Positions 32-9,432 of a stretch of 64,000 nt of DNA are shown piece by piece. Source of the DNA: Caballeronia sp. SBC1 (GTDB lineage: Bacteria > Pseudomonadota > Gammaproteobacteria > Burkholderiales > Burkholderiaceae); contig NZ_CP049156.1 in NCBI RefSeq assembly GCF_011493005.1, positions 1,798,001 to 1,862,000 of the forward strand, written 5' to 3'. Made by a program: the position numbers and the translations under genes. A model generated the notes under the pieces. The model searched no databases and had not been told where the DNA came from. It worked only from the letters and a program-made list of their open reading frames with translations. Every line of letters starts with the position of its first letter. Positions within the stretch are counted from its first letter, which is position 1.

Positions 32-1207
32 ATGAGCGTGATTGACCTGGATACGATTTTCCGCGGCTATCGTCGCGACAATGGCCGCGTCGGCGTGCGC
101 AACCACGTGATCATCCTGCCGGTCGACGACCTGTCGAACTCGGCGGCGCTGGCGGTCGAGAACAACATCAAGGGCACGATGGCGCTGCCCCATCCGTATG
201 GGCGCCTGCAGTTTGGTGCCGACCTCGACCTGCATTTCCGCACGCTGATTGGCGCCGGCAGCAATCCGAACGTCGCGGCGGTGGTCGTGATCGGTATTGA
301 GGAAGGCTGGACCAAGCGAGTGGTGGATGGCATTGCCAAGACGGGCAAGCCGGTGATGGGCTTCGGCATTGAACTGCATGGTGACCACGACACCGTCATG
401 CGGGCGTCGAAAGCGGCGAAGGAGATGGTGCAGTACGCAACCGCGCTTCATAGAGAGGAATGTCCGATCTCGGATCTGTGGGTGTCCACCAAGTGCGGCG
501 AGTCGGACACCACTTCCGGCTGCGGCTCGAACCCTACCGTGGGCAATGCTTTCGACAAGCTATACGGTCTCGGCACCACCCTCGTGTTCGGCGAGACCTC
601 CGAACTGACAGGCGGTGAGCAGATCGTGGCCGCGCGTTGCGCCAACGACGGCGTGCGCGAGCGCTTCCAGTTCATGTTCGACCGCTATCAGGACATGATC
701 AACCGCTGGAAAACGGACGATCTTTCCGAGTCGCAGCCGACCAAGGGCAACATTGCGGGCGGCCTGACGACCATCGAGGAAAAGGCGCTCGGCAATATCC
801 AGAAGATCGGCAAGAAGTGCATGGTGGACGGCGTGCTCGACAAAGCGGAGGAGCCAACACATCCGGGCCTCTGGTTCATGGACTCATCGTCGGCGGCAGC
901 AGAAATGGTGACGCTGTGCGCGGCGTCGGGCTTCGCGGTGCACTTCTTCCCGACGGGCCAAGGCAACGTGATCGGCAATCCGATCGTACCTGTCATCAAG
1001 ATCTGCGCGAACCCGCGTACAGTGCGTACGATGAGCGAGCATATCGACGTGGATGTGTCGGGTATTCTGCAGCGCGAGCAGAATCTCGACCAAAGCGGCG
1101 ACAAGCTGCTCGAATGCATGCTCGCTACCGTGAACGGCCGCTTCACGTCGGCGGAAGCGCTCGGGCATCGCGAGTTCGTACTGACCCGGTTGTTCGAAAG
1201 CGCCTGA
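32..1207 (+). CDS. suyB: (2R)-sulfolactate sulfo-lyase, large (beta) subunit, SuyB-like
   Basis: A 391-residue protein of the UxaA/GarD dehydratase superfamily, containing the large catalytic part without the small N-terminal SAF domain. That split is the arrangement of SuyAB, where SuyA is the small subunit. The conserved cysteine-rich stretch [18 protein letters not shown] lies near residues 154-171. SuyAB splits (R)-sulfolactate into pyruvate and sulfite in the cytosol. Homology alone cannot separate it from altronate or galactarate dehydratases. I choose SuyB because the next genes encode SlcC-like and ComC-like dehydrogenases and a SoeABC-like sulfite dehydrogenase, which is the full known sulfolactate route. 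The gene starts 31 bases from the window edge, so suyA is expected just upstream. A 153-base gap separates it from the transporter gene. Confidence 0.75.
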
Positions 1208-1360
1208 GGATCAAGCGGCGGGGTCTGTGCGGGATCTGACCAGACAGTGAACCCCGGCGCGCGCCGGCACGGAGAAGGCACACGCCACCCGTGCCGGCAC
1301 ACCCATGCCGCAAAGGCGCCGGCTCGACATGTAGCGGCAGCGAGTGGAGGAGACACCATC

Positions 1361-2692
1361 TTGCGCGTGCTGAAACATCTATACGTGCAAGTCCTGATCG
1401 GACTTGCGGCCGGCGTCGTTGTCGGTTATTTCGCGCCTTCGTTCGGCGTGGAAATGAAGCCGCTCGGCGACACCTTCATCCGTCTCATCAAGATGCTGAT
1501 CACGCTCGTGATCTTCTGCACGGTCTCCGTCGGCATCGCGCGAATGGAAAGCCTCAAGCAGGTGGGCCGCGTCGGTTTCAAGACGTTGCTCTACTTCGAG
1601 GTGATGACCACCATTGCACTGGTGATCGGGCTGGTCGTGGCGAACGTGCTGCACCCCGGCGCGGGTCTGAACATTGATCCGGCCACGCTCGATCCCCATG
1701 CGATCTCTCACTATGTAGCGGACGCGCATGCGGCATCGTCGAGTTTCTTCGAATTGATCGTGCCCAACTCGGTAGTGGGTGCATTCGCGCGCGGTGATCT
1801 CCTGCAGGTGCTGTTGTTCTCGGTGCTCTTCGGCATTGCGCTCTCAATCATGTCGCAGCGCAGCCGGCTGCTGATGCGCGGGATCGAGCAATTCGGCGAA
1901 GCGCTCATGAGCATCGTCGGCATGATCATGCGGCTTGCACCGCTCGGCGCATTCGGCGCGATCGCATTCACGGTCGGCAAATACGGCATTTCGACCTTGC
2001 AGCAACTCGGGCTGCTTATCCTCTGCTTCTATGTCACCAGCATCCTGTTCATTGCCATCGTGCTGGGTGCCGCCGCGCAGTGGGCAGGCGTCGGGCTGTG
2101 GCCGTTGCTCAAGTATTTCCGCGAGGAACTACTGATCGTGCTCGGCACGTCCACCACGGAATCCGTGTTGCCGCGTCTGATGGAAAAGCTCGAACGCATG
2201 GGCTGCCCGAAGGCCATTGTCGGGCTCGTGCTGCCGACGGGGTATTCATTCAACCTCGACGGCGCGGCGATTTATCTCACGATGACATCGCTCTTCATCG
2301 CTCAGGCGACGAACACGCACCTCACGCTGATGCAGCAAATCGGCTTGCTGGCAATCCTTATGCTGACGTCCAAAGGCGGTGCGGGCGTAGCGGGTGCGGC
2401 GCTGGTTGCGCTGACAGCAACGCTTTCCACGCACAACATCATTCCGGTAGCGGGCATCACGCTGATACTGGGCGTCGACCGGGTGCTCAACGAAGTTCGC
2501 GCAATCACCAACATGATCGGCAATGTGGTGGCAGCGCTCGTGGTGGCACGCTGGGAGGGCGCGTTCGATGCACGTGCTGCGTGCGAGTTTCTTGCCGCGC
2601 CAAGCGAACGTCAGGCAGATCCCGTTGGGCCGAGCCAGGAAGAAATACGTCTTCCCGCGTCGGCTCAATTGATGGAAAAGGCGGCCGAATGA
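1361..2692 (+). CDS. DAACS-family (DctA/GltP-like) carboxylate:cation symporter, candidate sulfolactate importer
   Basis: A 443-residue polytopic inner-membrane protein of the dicarboxylate/amino acid:cation symporter family. The conserved TM7-HP2 region is visible: GTSTTESVLPRLMEKLERMG and then the NLDGAAIYLT motif. DctA homologues carry C4-dicarboxylates with protons or sodium. Here it lies between suyB and slcC, and slcC starts inside its stop codon (ATGA). This makes sulfolactate, a C3 sulfonate-carboxylate dianion resembling malate, the likely substrate (inference). I place the start at the TTG at 1361, because GGAGG at 1346-1350 is well spaced from it and the predicted N-terminus then matches DctA. 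The reading frame stays open back to an ATG at 1247, but that would add a non-homologous arginine-rich leader. Confidence 0.8.
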   Translation: MRVLKHLYVQVLIGLAAGVVVGYFAPSFGVEMKPLGDTFIRLIKMLITLVIFCTVSVGIARMESLKQVGRVGFKTLLYFEVMTTIALVIGLVVANVLHPGAGLNIDPATLDPHAISHYVADAHAASSSFFELIVPNSVVGAFARGDLLQVLLFSVLFGIALSIMSQRSRLLMRGIEQFGEALMSIVGMIMRLAPLGAFGAIAFTVGKYGISTLQQLGLLILCFYVTSILFIAIVLGAAAQWAGVGLWPLLKYFREELLIVLGTSTTESVLPRLMEKLERMGCPKAIVGLVLPTGYSFNLDGAAIYLTMTSLFIAQATNTHLTLMQQIGLLAILMLTSKGGAGVAGAALVALTATLSTHNIIPVAGITLILGVDRVLNEVRAITNMIGNVVAALVVARWEGAFDARAACEFLAAPSERQADPVGPSQEEIRLPASAQLMEKAAE

Positions 2693-3618
2693 AGAAGATC
2701 GTCATCAGTGAGTTCATGGACGAAGCAGCAGTCGATACATTAAGACAGCGCTTCCAGGTCCGCTACGATGCCACGCTCGTCGATCATCCCGAGCGCCTTG
2801 CCGCCGATCTTGCAGATGCGCACGCGTTGATCGTGAGGAACCGCACGCAGGTTTCGGCGGAGCTGCTGCAAATAGCGGCGCATCTGAGCGTCGTGGGCCG
2901 GCTCGGCGTTGGGCTCGACAACATCGACATGTCCGCATGCGCCGCGCGCAACGTGGCCGTCTTCCCCGCGACGGGCGCTAACGCGCAAGCAGTCGCGGAG
3001 TACGTGATTGCTGCCACGCTCATGCTATTGCGCGGCGTGTACCTGCGCAGCGCTGATGTCGCCGCGGGCGAGTGGCCGCGTCAGGTGCTATCCAATGGTC
3101 GCGAGGCGGCAGGAAGCGTGTTGGCGGTGATCGGCTTTGGTGGTATCGGCCAGCTTGTGGCGCGGCTTGCGCGGGGCCTTGGCATAACGGTGGTCGGCTA
3201 TGATCCGCAGCAGCCCGCGGACGCGCCATGCTGGCACGAAACCGGCGCGCGCTGCATGGCGCTTGATGAAGCACTCGCCGCCGCCGATGCCGTCACGCTG
3301 CATGTCCCGCTGACCGATGCCACGCGCAACCTGCTCGACACCACGCGCATCGGCCTGCTGAAACCCGGCGCGATCGTGATCAATACGGCGCGGGGCGGTA
3401 CCATCGATGAAAGCGCACTCGCTGCTGCACTGCAAGAGAAACGGCTCGCCGGCGCCGCGCTCGATGTCTTCGCCGATGAACCCCTGCGCGCCGGTTCGCC
3501 TCTTGCGGCCGCGCCGAACCTGATCCTCACGCCGCATATTGCGGGGCTGACGGTGCAATCGAACGAACGCGTGAGTTCGCTCGTAGCGGCACGGGTCGCG
3601 GCTGCGCTTACAGAGTGA
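2689..3618 (+). CDS. slcC: (S)-sulfolactate dehydrogenase, SlcC-like 2-hydroxyacid dehydrogenase
   Basis: A 309-residue NAD-dependent D-2-hydroxyacid dehydrogenase of the SerA type. The Rossmann motif GFGGIG is at residues 149-154. The catalytic Arg (NTARGG, R235), Glu (E264) and His (TPHIAG, H283) are all present. In SlcC this enzyme oxidises (S)-sulfolactate to 3-sulfopyruvate. The next gene, comC-like, would reduce sulfopyruvate to the (R)-isomer that SuyAB cleaves. The ATG overlaps the transporter stop by four bases, so the two are probably translationally coupled. By sequence alone it could be a phosphoglycerate or hydroxypyruvate dehydrogenase. The assignment rests on the neighbours. 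Confidence 0.72.
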   Translation: MKKIVISEFMDEAAVDTLRQRFQVRYDATLVDHPERLAADLADAHALIVRNRTQVSAELLQIAAHLSVVGRLGVGLDNIDMSACAARNVAVFPATGANAQAVAEYVIAATLMLLRGVYLRSADVAAGEWPRQVLSNGREAAGSVLAVIGFGGIGQLVARLARGLGITVVGYDPQQPADAPCWHETGARCMALDEALAAADAVTLHVPLTDATRNLLDTTRIGLLKPGAIVINTARGGTIDESALAAALQEKRLAGAALDVFADEPLRAGSPLAAAPNLILTPHIAGLTVQSNERVSSLVAARVAAALTE

Positions 3619-3645
3619 ATATCCACAATCTCAAAGGAATGATCG

Positions 3646-4641
3646 ATGGCCCGACTGCTTCCCGAGGCGCTCACCGCGCTTGCTGTTGACTCGCTGCTTG
3701 CCGCCGGCGCGCTGCCCGCGACCGCGCAATCGACAGCCCGTGCGCTTGTTTATGCTGACCAGCGCGGGTTGTCGTCGCATGGCGTATCGCGTCTGCCGAT
3801 GTATTGTGCGCAACTCAGGAACGGCCGCGTTGATCCTTTGGCGCGACCGGGCATCGTTTCGGATCGCGGCGCGGCCGTGCTGGTCGACGGCGCGGATGGG
3901 CTCGCCTATCCCGCCTGCGATCTCGCGATCAGCGCGTTGATTGAACGCGCGCGGCAGTTCGGCAGTGCGGTGGCGGGCGTCAGGCGCAGCCATCATTTCG
4001 GCGTCGGCGCGGCGCATTTGCAGGCGCTCGGCGCGGCGGGCATGGTCGGTCTCGCGTTCAGCAACTCGCCGGCGGCCATGCCCGCGTGGGGCGGCCGGCG
4101 CGCGCTCTTCGGCACCAACCCCATTGCCGCCGTCTTCCCGCGCCGTCAAGGGGAACCGCTGGTGATCGACCTCGCGCTCTCGCAGATTGCGCGCGGCAAG
4201 ATTGCCATTGCCGCCCGTGACGGCAAGCCGATTCCTGAAGGCTGGGCGACCACCCGCGACGGCCACCCGACGACCGATGCCCGGGCTGCCCTCGATGGCA
4301 TGATGCTGCCGTTCGGCGGGGCGAAGGGCGCGATGCTGGCGCTGGTTGTCGAGTTGCTGGCGGCGGCGCTGACCGGCGCGAACTTCGGTTACGAAGCCGG
4401 TTCGTTCCTGACGGAGGAGGGCGAGCGTTCGCGTATTGGTCATTTATTCTGGGCGATCGATCCGGGCGCGCTGGCCGGTGACGACACCTATCTCTCGCGC
4501 GTGGAAACGCTGATTGAAATGATGCTCATGGACGACGATGTCCGGCTTCCCGGCTACCGGAGAGAACGTCTTGCCGAAGCGTCGGAGCAGGAAGGCGTTG
4601 ATGTTCCCGACGCACTGGTCGCGCAACTGAAGGCAAATTGA
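3646..4641 (+). CDS. comC: (R)-sulfolactate dehydrogenase, ComC-like (Ldh/malate dehydrogenase family)
   Basis: A 331-residue member of the non-Rossmann Ldh2/MDG2 NAD(P)-dependent oxidoreductase family. The family signatures RGLSSHGVSRLPMY (residues 40-53) and RSHHFGVGAAH (114-124) are visible, and the latter carries the substrate and cofactor histidines. ComC from coenzyme M biosynthesis and sulfolactate degradation interconverts sulfopyruvate and (R)-sulfolactate. Paired with the slcC-like gene 27 bases upstream, it would invert the stereochemistry of (S)-sulfolactate so that SuyAB can act. L-malate, ureidoglycolate or other 2-hydroxyacids are alternative substrates in this family. The gene pair next to suyB makes sulfolactate the best reading. 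Confidence 0.72.
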   Translation: MARLLPEALTALAVDSLLAAGALPATAQSTARALVYADQRGLSSHGVSRLPMYCAQLRNGRVDPLARPGIVSDRGAAVLVDGADGLAYPACDLAISALIERARQFGSAVAGVRRSHHFGVGAAHLQALGAAGMVGLAFSNSPAAMPAWGGRRALFGTNPIAAVFPRRQGEPLVIDLALSQIARGKIAIAARDGKPIPEGWATTRDGHPTTDARAALDGMMLPFGGAKGAMLALVVELLAAALTGANFGYEAGSFLTEEGERSRIGHLFWAIDPGALAGDDTYLSRVETLIEMMLMDDDVRLPGYRRERLAEASEQEGVDVPDALVAQLKAN

Positions 4642-4768
4642 AACCATCAGCGTAGCGGATAGTTCCTCTCACAAATGGCGATTTCCCTTTAGAACCGGCG
4701 GCGATTAGGATGGTCAGGATTGGATCGGTAGCGCCTGGACATACCAGAAGCAGCGAGGGAGACCCAGC

Positions 4769-7699
4769 ATGGAACATCACGCACGCACGCAGGACGAGCG
4801 GCTCGAGATCAAGACGACCACTTGCTACATGTGCGCTTGTCGCTGTGGCATTCGCGTGCATTTACGCGAAGGCGAAGTGCGTTATATCGATGGCAACCCG
4901 GAACACCCGCTCAACCAGGGCGTGATCTGCGCGAAGGGGGCGTCGGGCATCATGAAGCAGTATTCGCCCGCCCGGCTCACGCAGCCATTGATGCGCCGAG
5001 CGGACGCCGAGCGTGGCAGCGCGCAGTTCGAACCGGTCTCGTGGGAAGTCGCCTTCGATATCCTCGAAAAACGCCTTGCCGGAATCCGCGCCACCGACCC
5101 AAAGAAGTTCGCGCTCTTTACCGGCCGCGATCAGATGCAGGCGCTCACAGGCCTCTTCGCCAAACAGTTCGGTACGCCTAACTATGCGGCTCACGGCGGT
5201 TTTTGTTCGGCGAACATGGCGGCCGGCATGATCTACACGATCGGCGGCTCGTTCTGGGAATTCGGCGGTCCCGATCTCGACAGCGCCAAGCTGTTCTTCA
5301 TGATCGGGACGGCGGAGGATCATCATTCCAATCCGCTGAAGATCGCCATCTCGAAGTTCAAGCGCGGAGGCGGACGCTTTATCGCGATCAATCCCATACG
5401 CACCGGTTACGCCGCCATTGCCGACGAATGGGTACCGATCAAGCCCGGCACCGACGGCGCGCTGTTCATGGCGTTTCTCCACGAGCTAATTGCTGCCGAC
5501 GCCTGGGACCACGAGTTCGTGCAGCGCTATACGAACGCAGCCGACCTCGTTGACCTCAACGAAGAGAGCGAGAACTTCGGCCTGTTCGTGAGCGACCCGG
5601 ATACACCCGCGGGCAATCCGCTATTTCCGCAAAATCATGCATGGTGGGATACCGAAGCGGCGCGCGCCGTGCCACATCATTCACCGGGGGTGACACCCGC
5701 GCTCGACGGCCGCTATACGCTCGGGGACGGCACGCCCGTTGCGCCGTCGTTCACGCTGCTGCGTGAGCGCGTGGCGGATTGCACGCCCGAGTGGGCGGCT
5801 GATATTACGGGCATTCCCGCCGCCACCATCCGCCGTCTCGCGCAGGAGATGATCCAGACGAGCCGCGATCACCGGATCACACTGCCCATTCGCTGGACCG
5901 ACGCGTGGGGCGAGACGCACGAAACCGTCACCGGCAACCCCGTCGCGTTTCATGCCATGCGCGGGCTCGCTGCGCACTCCAACGGCTTCCAGTCGATCCG
6001 TGCGCTCGCGGTGCTGATGTCGCTGCTGGGCACTATCGACCGGCCCGGCGGCTTTCGACATAAATCGCCGTTTCCGCGTGCCGTGCCGCCATCGGCGAAA
6101 CCGCCGAACAGCCCCGACGCCGTCAAGCCGAACACGCCGCTCGCGACCGGACCGCTGGGCTGGCCCGCGGCGCCGGAAGATCTTTTCATCGATGAAAACG
6201 GCGGCCCCGTTCGCATTGATAAAGCGTTCTCGTGGGAGTACCCGCTTGCCGTGCATGGTGTGATGCATAGCGTGATCACCAACGCGTGGCGAGGGGATCC
6301 GTACCCAATCGATACGTTGATGATTTTCATGGCCAACATGGCCTGGAACTCGTCGATGAATACGACGAAGGTGCGCGAGATGCTCGTCGACAAACACGCG
6401 AACGGTGACTACAAGATTCCGTTTCTCGTGGTGTGCGACGCGTTCCAGTCGGAGATGACGGCGTTCGCCGACCTCATCCTGCCGGACACGACTTACCTTG
6501 AGCGCCACGACGCGATGTCGATGCTCGATCGCCCGATCTCCGAGTTCGATGGTCCTGCCGATTCCGTGCGCGTACCGGTTGTGCCGCCTTCGGGCGAATG
6601 CAAGCCGTTCCAGGAAGTGTTGATCGAACTGGCGTCGCGGCTGAAGTTTCCGGCCTTTACAACGGCGGAAGGCACGAGGCGCTATCGTGACTATCCTGAC
6701 TTTGTCGTCAATTTCACGACTACACCTGATTCTGGAGTGGGTTTCCTGATTGGATGGCGTGGCAAAGACGGCGATAAGGCGCTGGTCGGCGAGCCGAATC
6801 CGAAGCAGTGGGAGCAGTACGCGAAGAACAACTGCGTGTTCCATTATGTGATGCCGGAAGACTTGCAGTACATGCGCAACTGCAATGGGCCGTATCTGGA
6901 CTGGGCGGTGAAAAACGGTTTTCGCAAGTTCCGCGAACCCATCGTCATCCAGCTTTATTCCGATGTCATGCAGAAGTTTCGTCTCGCGGCGCAAGGGCGA
7001 ACGAAAGGGCGGCAGCCTCCCGATCACTTGCGCGAGCGCGTCGAAAAATACTTCGATCCGCTGCCGTTCTGGTACGCGCCGCTTGAGAGCAATTCGACCG
7101 ACCTTGAGCGTTTCCCGCTCGCCGCTGTGACGCAACGGCCGATGGCGATGTATCACTCATGGGACTCGCAGAATGCGTGGCTGCGTCAGATCCATGGCGA
7201 GAATTATCTCTACATGAATCCGTTGATGGCGGCTGAGAAAGGCATTGCGGACGGCGGCTGGATTTATGTTGAGTCGCAATGGGGCCGCGTGCGCTGCATG
7301 GCTCGCTTCAGTGAAACGGTTGAGCCGGGGACGGTGTGGACCTGGAATGCGATCGGGAAGGCGTCGGGTGCATGGAGCCTCGGCCCGGACGCAAACGAAT
7401 CGCAACGTGGTTTCCTGCTCAATCACCTGATCACTGACGAATTGCCCGGCACGGATGAAGCGGACCAAGCCGCCGGACGTGTCTCGAACTCGGACCCGGT
7501 GACAGGGCAGGCTGCGTGGTATGACGTGCGCGTGCGGATCTATCCGGCTGAGGCCGACGCGCAGCACACGCTGCCGCAGTTCGACGCCATGCGTGCGCTG
7601 CCGGGTTCAAACGGTGTGATATCGCGGATCGTGCAGACCTACTTCGCAGGGCAAGGCGAATTTGCGGCACGGCTGCGCGGCGCAGTAGGGCGCAAGTAG
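4769..7699 (+). CDS. soeA: Molybdopterin oxidoreductase, SoeA-like sulfite dehydrogenase catalytic subunit
   Basis: A 976-residue molybdopterin guanine dinucleotide enzyme of the DMSO reductase family. The N-terminal [4Fe-4S] motif uses C19, C22, C26 and C54 (CYMCACRC, then VICAKG). A cysteine in the stretch GGFCSANMAA (C146) is at the expected molybdenum-ligand position, as in PhsA, PsrA and SoeA. The MGD-binding C-terminal domain is complete. No twin-arginine signal is present, which fits the cytoplasmic SoeABC type. soeB and soeC follow at 27 and 11 bases. In sulfonate degraders this enzyme oxidises sulfite to sulfate and feeds electrons to quinone. Other related reactions (thiosulfate, polysulfide or formate) cannot be excluded by sequence alone. 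A separate promoter may lie in the 127-base gap before it. Confidence 0.72.
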   Translation: MEHHARTQDERLEIKTTTCYMCACRCGIRVHLREGEVRYIDGNPEHPLNQGVICAKGASGIMKQYSPARLTQPLMRRADAERGSAQFEPVSWEVAFDILEKRLAGIRATDPKKFALFTGRDQMQALTGLFAKQFGTPNYAAHGGFCSANMAAGMIYTIGGSFWEFGGPDLDSAKLFFMIGTAEDHHSNPLKIAISKFKRGGGRFIAINPIRTGYAAIADEWVPIKPGTDGALFMAFLHELIAADAWDHEFVQRYTNAADLVDLNEESENFGLFVSDPDTPAGNPLFPQNHAWWDTEAARAVPHHSPGVTPALDGRYTLGDGTPVAPSFTLLRERVADCTPEWAADITGIPAATIRRLAQEMIQTSRDHRITLPIRWTDAWGETHETVTGNPVAFHAMRGLAAHSNGFQSIRALAVLMSLLGTIDRPGGFRHKSPFPRAVPPSAKPPNSPDAVKPNTPLATGPLGWPAAPEDLFIDENGGPVRIDKAFSWEYPLAVHGVMHSVITNAWRGDPYPIDTLMIFMANMAWNSSMNTTKVREMLVDKHANGDYKIPFLVVCDAFQSEMTAFADLILPDTTYLERHDAMSMLDRPISEFDGPADSVRVPVVPPSGECKPFQEVLIELASRLKFPAFTTAEGTRRYRDYPDFVVNFTTTPDSGVGFLIGWRGKDGDKALVGEPNPKQWEQYAKNNCVFHYVMPEDLQYMRNCNGPYLDWAVKNGFRKFREPIVIQLYSDVMQKFRLAAQGRTKGRQPPDHLRERVEKYFDPLPFWYAPLESNSTDLERFPLAAVTQRPMAMYHSWDSQNAWLRQIHGENYLYMNPLMAAEKGIADGGWIYVESQWGRVRCMARFSETVEPGTVWTWNAIGKASGAWSLGPDANESQRGFLLNHLITDELPGTDEADQAAGRVSNSDPVTGQAAWYDVRVRIYPAEADAQHTLPQFDAMRALPGSNGVISRIVQTYFAGQGEFAARLRGAVGRK

Positions 7700-7726
7700 C
7701 GACTACAAGAAGCAAGGGGGTATGCA

Positions 7727-8470
7727 ATGACTCAGATGGCGCTGGTGATCGACCTGAACGTTTGCGTGGGATGCCACGCTTGCGTGACGAGTTGCAAGGA
7801 GTGGAATACTTCGGGCGAGTCGGGCAGTCTTGCCGACCTGAATCCCTACGACGCTGATCCGTCCGGCACGTTCTTCAATCGTGTCCAGAGCTTCGAGGCG
7901 GGCAGTTATCCGAACGCCGAGACCATCCATTTTCCCAAGTCATGCCTGCACTGCGAGGACCCGCCGTGCGTGCCGGTGTGTCCAACCGGTGCGAGCTATA
8001 AGCGCAAGGAAGACGGGCTCGTGCTGGTGGACTTCGATAAATGCATCGGCTGCAAGTACTGCGCGTGGGCGTGTCCGTACGGTGCACGCGAACTCGACGA
8101 AGAGCGCAAGGAGATGACGAAGTGCACCTTGTGCGTGGATCGTATCCATGACGAAAACCTCTCTGAGCGAGATCGACAACCTGCGTGCGTGCTCGCGTGT
8201 CCGACCTCTGCAAGATTGTTCGGGGACATTCACGATCCCGAATCCGTGGTGTCGAAGGCGATCAAGGAACGCGGCGGTTATCAGTTGATGCCTGAATGGG
8301 ACACGAAGCCCGCGAACCACTATTTGCCGCGTAAGACGACGTCGGCTTCGGGCTGCGGGGAAGGCGCGTGCTCATGCAAGACGGCTTCCGCTGAGTCCAT
8401 GCCGCAAACGGTGGACGCGCAACTTGAGCGTGGGCAATTGCATCTTGCGTCGATCGCGACGCGCATCTAA
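7727..8470 (+). CDS. soeB: 4Fe-4S electron-transfer subunit, SoeB-like (DmsB family)
   Basis: A 247-residue ferredoxin-like subunit with four cysteine clusters: CVGCHACVTSC near the N-terminus, CEDPPCVPVCP, CIGCKYCAWACP and CTLCVDRI together with CVLACP. This is the pattern for four [4Fe-4S] centres that carry electrons between the molybdenum subunit and the membrane anchor in DmsB, PsrB and SoeB. It has no signal peptide, which agrees with a cytoplasmic-side complex. An extra cysteine-containing tail (GEGACSC) lies beyond the ferredoxin fold. The RBS AAGGGGG lies just upstream of the ATG. It is encoded directly between the catalytic and anchor subunits. Confidence 0.82.
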   Translation: MTQMALVIDLNVCVGCHACVTSCKEWNTSGESGSLADLNPYDADPSGTFFNRVQSFEAGSYPNAETIHFPKSCLHCEDPPCVPVCPTGASYKRKEDGLVLVDFDKCIGCKYCAWACPYGARELDEERKEMTKCTLCVDRIHDENLSERDRQPACVLACPTSARLFGDIHDPESVVSKAIKERGGYQLMPEWDTKPANHYLPRKTTSASGCGEGACSCKTASAESMPQTVDAQLERGQLHLASIATRI

Positions 8471-8481
8471 AGGACTCCGCA

Positions 8482-9432
8482 ATGAACCCCGCTTTCTCAG
8501 TTGTCTTTCTCACCACGCTAAGCGGCGCGGCGCAGGGCCTGCTGATCGCGCTTGTCGGCGTGGAGGCAGCCGCGCATCTCGGTCTTCTCGCAGCGCCGTC
8601 AACGGCGTTCTATGTCACGGGTGCGGCGTTGTCGGTGGTGCTTGGCGGACTCGGTCTCATCGCATCGTTCTTCCATCTCGGGCATCCTGAACGCGCGTGG
8701 CGGGCGGTCGCCATGTGGCGAACCTCGTGGTTGTCGCGTGAATGCCTCTGTCTGCCGGCGTTTCTCGCATGCGCGTTTTTCTACGGCGTCGCGCACTGGT
8801 TCGGCTCGCCGTGGTCGCTCGCAATAGGGGCGCTTGGTGTGCTCGCGAGCGCCGCGCTGTTCGTTTGCTCGGCCATGATCTATGCATGCTTGCGCTTCCT
8901 GCAGGAGTGGGCCACGCCGCTCACGCTGGCCAACTTCGTCCTGCTTGGCTGTGCGTCCGGGTTCACGCTGGTCACCGCTTTAAGCGCATGGTTCGCGCCC
9001 GCACTCACAGTGGGTCTTGCCGCCTGCGCGTGCGTGCTGACGCTTGCGGGTTGCGCGAGCCGGTCGGCATCGCTCGTGCGCAATGCACGACTGCGGCCCA
9101 AGTCCACCGTGCAGAGCGCGACGGGGATCAAGAACGCCAAGGTCGTGCAGGTATCGCGCGGCTTCACTGCCGGCGCATTCAATCTGCGCGAGTTCTTTCA
9201 CGGTAAATCGGCGGGCACGCTGCGCGGGATCAAGTGGGGATTTCTTGCGACGGCGTTCGTTGCTCCCATTGTGCTGATGGCATTGGGCGCAGGCGTGCAT
9301 TCGGTCGGCATCTCGGTCGCGCTGTTGGCCGCGGCGTGTCTCGTGCAGTACGCAGGCCTGGTGGCGGAACGATGGTTCTTCTTCGCCGAGGCGAAGCATC
9401 CGCAGAACCTGTATTACGCGCGAGTGGGATGA
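8482..9432 (+). CDS. soeC: DmsC-type membrane anchor, SoeC-like quinone-reactive subunit
   Basis: A 316-residue polytopic membrane protein of the DmsC family with about eight hydrophobic segments. The conserved DmsC stretches FHLGHPERAWRA and WRTSWLSRE fall near residues 62-87. It would anchor the SoeAB-like subunits on the cytoplasmic face and pass electrons to or from the quinone pool. The ATG is 11 bases after soeB, with AAGGA as RBS. It is the last gene of the putative sulfolactate and sulfite operon, and about 790 bases without a recognisable gene follow. Confidence 0.82.
   Translation: MNPAFSVVFLTTLSGAAQGLLIALVGVEAAAHLGLLAAPSTAFYVTGAALSVVLGGLGLIASFFHLGHPERAWRAVAMWRTSWLSRECLCLPAFLACAFFYGVAHWFGSPWSLAIGALGVLASAALFVCSAMIYACLRFLQEWATPLTLANFVLLGCASGFTLVTALSAWFAPALTVGLAACACVLTLAGCASRSASLVRNARLRPKSTVQSATGIKNAKVVQVSRGFTAGAFNLREFFHGKSAGTLRGIKWGFLATAFVAPIVLMALGAGVHSVGISVALLAAACLVQYAGLVAERWFFFAEAKHPQNLYYARVG

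Follow-up and report, generated by a model that had tools for sequence, protein, structure and literature searches.

Which genes belong with the sulfolactate lyase SuyAB of Caballeronia sp. SBC1, and from which compounds would its substrate come? The question is raised by an operon at the beginning of the stretch analyzed here (the window, 64,000 nucleotides of contig NZ_CP049156.1, G000:C1:1798001-1862000, in a genome of 8.85 Mb and five contigs), which joins suyB to soeABC-type genes for sulfite oxidation. A preliminary description of the window held this linkage to be fixed. We found that the conserved partner of SuyAB is not soeABC but a succinate dehydrogenase (SDH)- and fumarase-like module located upstream, outside the window and beyond what that description could see, and that this module is the more important feature of the locus. 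With strong genomic support, it is a candidate for a 3-sulfopropionate dehydrogenase plus a sulfoacrylate hydratase.

The genes of the module are the following, with positions in two wider intervals, L014 (G000:C1:1773001-1790000) and L006 (G000:C1:1788001-1808000; the window position equals the L006 position minus 10000):

L014:14847-15581, plus strand, sdhB
L014:15578-15922, plus strand, sdhD
L014:15919-16302, plus strand, sdhC
L006:1344-2237, plus strand, fumA
L006:2227-2862, plus strand, fumB
L006:2889-4625, plus strand, sdhA-like flavoprotein gene

FumA passed two fumarase-family NCBIfam cut-offs (298.5 bits against 276 for the class I fumarase alpha model), while FumB was below all of them, including that of the class I fumarase beta model, and the SdhA-like protein passed none. 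The latter was ruled out as an L-aspartate oxidase by its 372 bits under the nadB cut-off of 452.75, and as the housekeeping SDH by six paralogs in its own genome that are only 26 to 38% identical to it and differ in the site residues described below. Members of its clade (P0125, P0126, P0129, and others) carry public names of L-aspartate oxidase or fumarate reductase, in what looks like a systematic misannotation.

To follow these genes we used 399 genomes of the order, with a threshold of E <= 1e-180 for the SdhA-like protein, and 58 genomes of the genus. In the order, SuyB was present in 71 genomes and the SdhA-like protein in 51, 50 of which also carried SuyB. Counted by genome, this co-occurrence gives a Fisher p of ~2e-45, but related genomes are not independent, and the fairer figure is therefore the one by genus: 25 of the 31 genera with SuyB have the SdhA-like protein, against none of the 127 others (p ~9e-24). 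Both genes lay within 20 kb of each other in 40 of the 71 SuyB genomes. These 40 stretches (nine of them shorter than 20 kb owing to contig ends) all contained SdhB, SdhD, SdhC, FumA, SdhA, and SuyB, and FumB and SuyA appeared in 39 each. With thresholds of >=45% identity for SlcC and >=42% for ComC, the pair of dehydrogenases that would act as a racemase (see below), SlcC was found in 11 stretches, ComC in 26, both in 11, and neither in 14. A SorA-like protein was found in seven and SoeA in a single one, the window's own. Within the genus, the SdhA-like protein occurred in six genomes, five of them with SuyB and four within 20 kb of it. One of the genomes of the genus (G767) has two suyAB copies ~13 kb apart (L199, G767:C82:5000-24900), whose suyB genes differ at 23 of 1,173 bases; the first copy is in a run with dctA and comC, and the second with a DctA-type gene, the whole module, and a gene for a thiamine pyrophosphate (TPP)-dependent enzyme.

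The fixed linkage with soeABC had to be rejected. SoeA was detected in 43 of the 71 SuyB genomes of the order, but within 20 kb of SuyB in only three (a lower bound, given the fragmented assemblies, and one of the three is a partial match at a contig end); it was farther away on the same contig in four and on another contig in 36. In the genus, 14 of the 58 genomes carry SuyB and 12 of these 14 SoeA, which was on the same contig as SuyB, and within 20 kb, only in the genome of the window. In two of three genomes of the genus that we inspected (G797 and G780), the SoeABC genes follow a divergent LysR gene and a gene for a SuyZ/YeiH-like exporter (30 to 31%), a pair that was not found before SoeABC in the third (G813). 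A sulfite oxidase set that is usually separate thus seems to have come to lie behind comC in this strain, and the soeABC link is a strain-level curiosity.

The module appears in two gene orders: type 1, as here, sdhB-D-C-fumA-fumB-sdhA, and type 2, sdhB-D-C-sdhA-fumA-fumB. We aligned 141 distinct flavoproteins of the clade (41 of type 1, 17 plus 80 of type 2, and three from haloarchaea and Rhodococcus) with E. coli FrdA and SdhA and the six own-genome paralogs, one of which (26% identical) aligns poorly. Numbering follows FrdA, counted with its Met. All 141 sequences have Glu at the position of T245, which we take to be the dicarboxylate-binding Thr, and all keep H233, E246, R288, H356, and R391, presumably the catalytic Arg (R288) and substrate-binding residues (H233, H356, and R391). 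In the paralogs, the Glu site is Thr in five and Ser in one. In 61 aligned sequences an insertion, Thr-(Arg/Lys)-(Met/Ile/Leu)-Thr-Gly, stands just before the Glu, with the first Thr replaced by Ala in one of the 61. Directly before the motif T[RK]M.QGG, all 141 have a Cys where E. coli FrdA and SdhA and four of the six paralogs have the His that links the flavin adenine dinucleotide (FAD); the clade has one extra residue just before this Cys, so that alignment of the whole sequences places a Gly in the column of the His, and we do not claim the Cys as a new covalent flavin anchor.

In a FastTree phylogeny, the 141 sequences grouped together (support 1.0), as did the 41 of type 1 (0.90), while those of type 2 formed no separate clade, the smallest group that holds them also including type 1. 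The hydratase differs as well. FumB has the motif GTTTS in all 33 sequences of type 1 and Rhodococcus and TATAS in the six type 2 sequences aligned, where TtdB has GPTTS and E. coli FumA has GPTTA. Thus, the module shares its subunit set and the catalytic His and Arg residues with complex II and class I fumarase, and departs from them in the Glu for Thr, the Cys for the FAD-linking His, the Thr-Arg/Lys loop of SdhA, the altered GPTT[SA] of FumB, and its ties to sulfonate genes.

In wider samples, the SdhA-like protein was found in 11 of 398 genomes from across the phylum (E <= 1e-160) and in 18 plasmid records (E <= 1e-100). On a Methylobacterium oryzae plasmid (NZ_CP090350.1, L010), SdhB-D-C, FumA, FumB, the SdhA-like protein, TauE, suyAB, DctA, SlcC, and ComC form a single stretch, as here, and Rhodococcus jostii RHA1 has homologs of SdhA, FumA, and FumB (~50%) about 19 kb from SuyB on one plasmid. 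In two haloarchaea, Haloarcula sp. GH36 and Natribaculum luteum, SdhA-like and SdhB-like genes are located beside an argH-annotated gene, TauE, and SuyAB (SuyB 35 to 36% identical), with this fumarase/aspartase-superfamily gene in the place of FumAB (L062:7416-14413 and L063:7485-14453). Its products pass the argH model and also match, below cut-off, the coenzyme M synthesis family XcbC. A different hydratase at this place is as a 3-sulfopropionate route would expect, and the haloarchaeal plasmid loci are perhaps its archaeal version. Further type 2 loci came from a scan of named genomes with five aligned alphaproteobacterial type 2 SdhA sequences as query, and the counts out of 80 refer to the best 80 of 563 relatives. 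In type 2, compared with type 1, FumA is 32 to 35% and FumB 26 to 31% identical, and TauE, Tct transporters, SuyZ-like exporters, and sulfite dehydrogenases are neighbors in varying numbers. A TPP-dependent enzyme of the acetolactate synthase superfamily is encoded near the module in 18 of the 40 type 1 stretches and in 36 of the best 80 type 2 loci (e.g., L010:5559-7184, L199:9195-10814, and L058:9317-10918); a possible role would be the decarboxylation of a 2-oxo sulfonate such as one derived from homocysteate.

The module would feed the following genes, the first of which is outside the window:

L006:9588-9932, plus strand, suyA, small subunit of 114 aa (P0001), 99 bp upstream of suyB
32-1207, plus strand, suyB, (R)-sulfolactate sulfo-lyase large subunit (GD_AH_second and GD_AH_C domains, plasmid homologs)
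1247-2692, plus strand, DctA-type C4-dicarboxylate symporter, likely for sulfolactate uptake (NF002461, 578.2 bits, cut-off 513)
2683-3618, plus strand, slcC-type 2-hydroxyacid dehydrogenase (2-Hacid_dh), by context an (S)-sulfolactate dehydrogenase (Pfam/NCBIfam, homologs in suy clusters)
3646-4641, plus strand, comC-type Ldh_2 dehydrogenase, by context an (R)-sulfolactate dehydrogenase (NF040650 is the best model, under its cut-off)
4769-7699, plus strand, soeA, putative molybdopterin sulfite dehydrogenase subunit (open reading frame, Pfam, named homologs, a homolog near xsc)
7727-8470, plus strand, soeB, iron-sulfur electron-transfer subunit (Pfam/NCBIfam)
8482-9432, plus strand, soeC, DmsC-family membrane anchor (Pfam only; no NCBIfam match)

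The gaps from suyB to soeC are 39, -10, 27, 127, 27, and 11 bp. Open reading frames and Pfam/NCBIfam searches bore out the one-strand set of lyase, two dehydrogenases, and SoeABC-type genes that had been described, to which the DctA-type carrier, absent from that list, has to be added. The operon is real and very probably serves sulfolactate use; it starts outside the window, which contains only its 3' genes. RNA folding 3' of soeC showed nothing above chance (z -0.53).

We propose that the locus is an organosulfonate island in which two feeds converge on a single desulfonation. From gene order, protein families, co-occurrence, and the residue signature, which the sequences show, we infer the substrates of the module and the direction in which it runs. 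In the first feed, which we consider very probable, DctA would import sulfolactate, SlcC and ComC would convert the (S)-form via sulfopyruvate to the (R)-form, SuyAB is predicted to cleave (R)-sulfolactate with release of sulfite and pyruvate, and SoeABC would oxidize the sulfite to sulfate in the cytoplasm and pass the electrons to quinone. In the second, to which we give a probability of roughly 65%, the module would make sulfolactate from 3-sulfopropionate: the SDH-like membrane complex would oxidize this analog of succinate to 3-sulfoacrylate, feeding quinone, and the class I fumarase-like FumAB would hydrate the latter to sulfolactate. By analogy with the formation of (S)-malate, a fumarase-like choice of face should give the (R)-form (the Cahn-Ingold-Prelog label flips, as CH2SO3 outranks COOH). 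Such a product would be used directly by SuyAB, and therefore no racemase would be needed. The route would account for the joint occurrence of the module and suyAB, for the frequent lack of a racemase, and for the additional suyAB pair of one genome.

A related case is Roseovarius nubinhibens ISM, which is reported, in work on its use of homotaurine, to degrade 3-sulfopropionate via sulfoacrylate and sulfolactate, the same order of intermediates as proposed here (thesis of J. Mayer, as cited in the available part of PMC11489063). We chose this strain as a test case before the genome scan, and it appeared among the best 80 of the 563 relatives, with a full type 2 cassette accompanied by TauE, LysR, and a Tct transporter. 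No SuyAB was found in the 21.7-kb locus of this cassette. Its sulfolactate degradation reportedly runs through Xsc and CuyA, in keeping with a locus in which suyAB is absent. At the level of the clade we go further, with less assurance and only slightly in favor: the complex II-type enzymes of this distinct clade, from Proteobacteria, Rhodococcus, and haloarchaea, may be membrane-bound 3-sulfopropionate:quinone dehydrogenases with a rebuilt pocket and a Cys for the FAD-linking His. Together with one of two fumarase-like hydratases (in haloarchaea, an unrelated member of the fumarase/aspartase superfamily), they would produce sulfolactate, and SuyAB, or Xsc/CuyA in roseobacters, would then desulfonate it.

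Several observations weigh against the 3-sulfopropionate route. FumA is over the cut-off of the generic fumarate hydratase model, and the Glu of the pocket is no obvious sulfonate ligand, though the conserved Thr-Arg/Lys insertion precedes it. With the FAD-linking His lost, the complex might run in reverse. The SdhA-like protein is absent from 21 of the 71 SuyB genomes of the order, and in the genus only five of the 14 SuyB genomes carry it and nine do not. Among the 50 genomes of the order with both, it is on another contig in nine and far from SuyB in one, and two of these 10 unlinked cases have the other fumarase type (for all 11 genomes in which the SdhA-like protein is not within 20 kb of SuyB, the FumA is of the same type in nine, 69 to 78% identical, and of the other type in two, 35%). 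It also occurs without SuyB in G211 (order) and G764 (genus), both fragmented assemblies. The 14 stretches counted as lacking a racemase include five with a weaker ComC match (32 to 40%) and nine without any, and five of the 14 are shorter than 20 kb. Finally, R. nubinhibens is supportive rather than a severe test: the choice of query favors its group, so that a Roseovarius was not very surprising, and its cassette is of type 2, with SdhA 63%, FumA 32%, and FumB 29% identical to the proteins here.

Alternatively, the operon could serve the sulfolactate route alone, with SoeABC as its last step, and the SDH/fumarase genes could be an independent C4-dicarboxylate module, converting succinate to malate, that lies nearby by chance. 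FumA passes a fumarate hydratase model, the carrier belongs to the DctA type for C4-dicarboxylates, and the 21 SuyB genomes just mentioned manage without the module. We consider this unlikely, given that 50 of the 51 SdhA-like genomes have SuyB and 40 of the 71 SuyB genomes have the two within 20 kb, that the linkage recurs in M. oryzae and two haloarchaea, and that the genome's own six paralogs are so distant, with Thr or Ser at the Glu site and the FAD-linking His in four. A module working in reverse, dehydrating sulfolactate to sulfoacrylate and reducing it to 3-sulfopropionate as an electron sink, would agree with the His lost in 141 of 141 sequences, since E. coli FrdA mutants without it reportedly favor fumarate reduction over succinate oxidation, and several homologs are named fumarate reductase. 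Nevertheless, the sulfonate-type uptake systems, sulfite exporters, and sulfite dehydrogenases near the module in several loci speak against a sink, SuyAB next to it would compete for sulfolactate, and R. nubinhibens is reported to run the sequence in the degradative direction (PMC11489063, available part); this alternative seems improbable to us.

The substrate of the module might also be a different sulfonate or acid, such as a longer analog or one that bears an amino group, with the Glu binding a positive or hydrogen-bonding group. Glu for Thr is indeed an unusual change for anion binding, and a TPP-dependent enzyme is encoded close to the module in part of the loci of both types. However, if dehydrogenation and hydration end in the substrate of SuyAB, 3-sulfopropionate is the only compound that needs just those two steps, and we regard a different substrate as doubtful.

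The identity of the sulfolactate enzymes themselves was checked separately. The lyase had been described as SuyB-type, and its small subunit gene was indeed present directly upstream, so that a missing suyA, named there as a ground for refutation, does not apply. The sole NCBIfam match of SuyA is the N-terminal part of galactarate dehydratase, and it is 43 to 82% identical to the small subunit preceding SuyB in all seven plasmid clusters compared. In a tblastn search of SuyB against 72,556 plasmid records, 314 matched, and the best 40 of these were considered: 13 had 61 to 93% identity and the next one 40%, a clean gap that sets the putative SuyB group apart from other UxaA-family proteins. 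The nearest were Caballeronia insecticola (93.3%) and Cupriavidus pinatubonensis HN-2 (86.7%), in which suyAB is placed after hpsN and hpsO. With this gap and only 150 bits against a cut-off of 731 for the galactarate dehydratase model, an altronate or galactarate dehydratase was ruled out, and sequence comparison makes the assignment as SuyAB a good one. In C. pinatubonensis JMP134, HpsN, HpsO, and HpsP are described together with SuyAB as the desulfonating enzyme (PMC9594981, in the part available). For the ComC-type Ldh_2 protein, the best of five NCBIfam models was sulfolactate dehydrogenase NF040650 (210.8 bits, below its cut-off of 500), and we rate its putative assignment as fair; the SlcC-type protein had no specific model among 25 NCBIfam matches, and its homologs were found in four of the seven plasmid suy clusters (53 to 57% in L009, L010, and L011; 42% in L013). 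SuyAB, SlcC, and ComC functions are also combined in Chromohalobacter salexigens and Paracoccus, in the latter in a single neighborhood, where the SlcC/ComC pair was proposed to racemize (S)-sulfolactate (available part of PMC9594981). The present locus differs from those clusters in its DctA carrier and in the upstream SDH/fumarase module, and it has SoeABC where the same passages give a cytochrome c-linked sulfite dehydrogenase for Paracoccus and Cupriavidus.

The soeABC genes are in the order A-B-C and encode, according to Pfam/NCBIfam, a molybdenum/iron-sulfur catalytic subunit, an iron-sulfur subunit, and a DmsC/NrfD-type anchor. SoeA enzymes are described as cytoplasmic and without a twin-arginine translocation signal; in the translation we saw a CxxCxxxC motif from residue 19 and no twin-arginine leader. 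No NCBIfam cut-off was reached (best PhsA, 224 of 694 bits), and the best PDB chain was a thiosulfate reductase (E 3e-42). Among the best 120 homologs listed, seven have the JGI name SoeA, and others are named formate dehydrogenase, selenocysteine-containing dehydrogenase, or molybdopterin oxidoreductase. A homolog with 53% identity from Azospirillum sp. TSH58, accompanied by its B and C subunits, is located between apparent sulfoacetate route genes (an aldehyde dehydrogenase, two CoA-ligase-type genes, and a Tct transporter) and xsc. The names and this neighborhood agree with the SoeA type described before, and the assignment as SoeABC is a fair one. By description, the same three subunits make up SoeABC of Ruegeria pomeroyi and Allochromatium vinosum. 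A soeABC set within a sulfonate cluster is already known, from R. pomeroyi, where soeCBA adjoins pta (PMC4334477, part available), while here soeABC is beside the comC of a SuyAB cluster. At its end the M. oryzae cluster has, instead, SorA (NF052245, over cut-off) and genes for a small protein and a SuyZ-like exporter; therefore, the sulfite-oxidation step looks like an exchangeable end piece.

Between the module and suyA lies a block on the minus strand:

L006:4556-5473, minus strand, LysR regulator gene
L006:5486-6244, minus strand, TauE-type exporter (33% identity to the annotated TauE/SafE protein in L010; no NCBIfam match)
L006:6267-7175, minus strand, ATP-binding cassette (ABC) transporter permease
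L006:7168-7965, minus strand, ABC transporter ATPase
L006:7967-8986, minus strand, ABC transporter binding protein

The three ABC proteins match the Ssu/Tau/nitrate transporter families, all below cut-offs. Farther upstream, ~17 to 20 kb before the window and ~7 kb before the SDH-like genes, are an xsc-like gene (46% to an annotated xsc) and a pta-like gene (L014:5135-8092), preceded by a gene for a PhnW-like aminotransferase; PhnW-like and pta-like are names given from the translation only. With the xsc-like and pta-like genes, the island may handle C2 sulfonates too. Type 2 loci have additional genes: one for a CoA-acylating methylmalonate-semialdehyde dehydrogenase in Pseudomonas sp. MPC6 and Cupriavidus sp. 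P-10 (L056:15325-17377 and L057), and NIPSNAP-family genes in nine loci among the best 80 of 563. Because of that dehydrogenase gene, type 2 loci possibly hydrate sulfoacrylate at C3, giving malonate semialdehyde and sulfite by direct desulfonation, an idea weakened by R. nubinhibens, which has type 2 yet reportedly goes via sulfolactate.

3-Sulfopropionate is a product of sulfoquinovose and 2,3-dihydroxypropane-1-sulfonate fermentation by Enterococcus gilvus and of homotaurine use, and its bacterial degradation is, according to the available part of PMC11489063, unreported apart from one thesis. Cupriavidus necator H16 is a strain that forms 3-sulfopropionate from homotaurine. The passages available of two other articles state that this degradation needs further investigation (PMC9594981) and that the mechanism in Bilophila is still unclear (PMC12890257), and the passages considered from open-license PMC papers name no gene for 3-sulfopropionate dehydrogenation or sulfoacrylate hydration. 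The module supplies candidate genes in named strains, with which this missing step of the organosulfur cycle can be put to a direct test. The current names of the flavoprotein, L-aspartate oxidase and fumarate reductase, would mislead pathway reconstruction. If the proposal is true, these bacteria and archaea would have the succinate-fumarate-malate part of the citric acid cycle in a second, sulfonate version.

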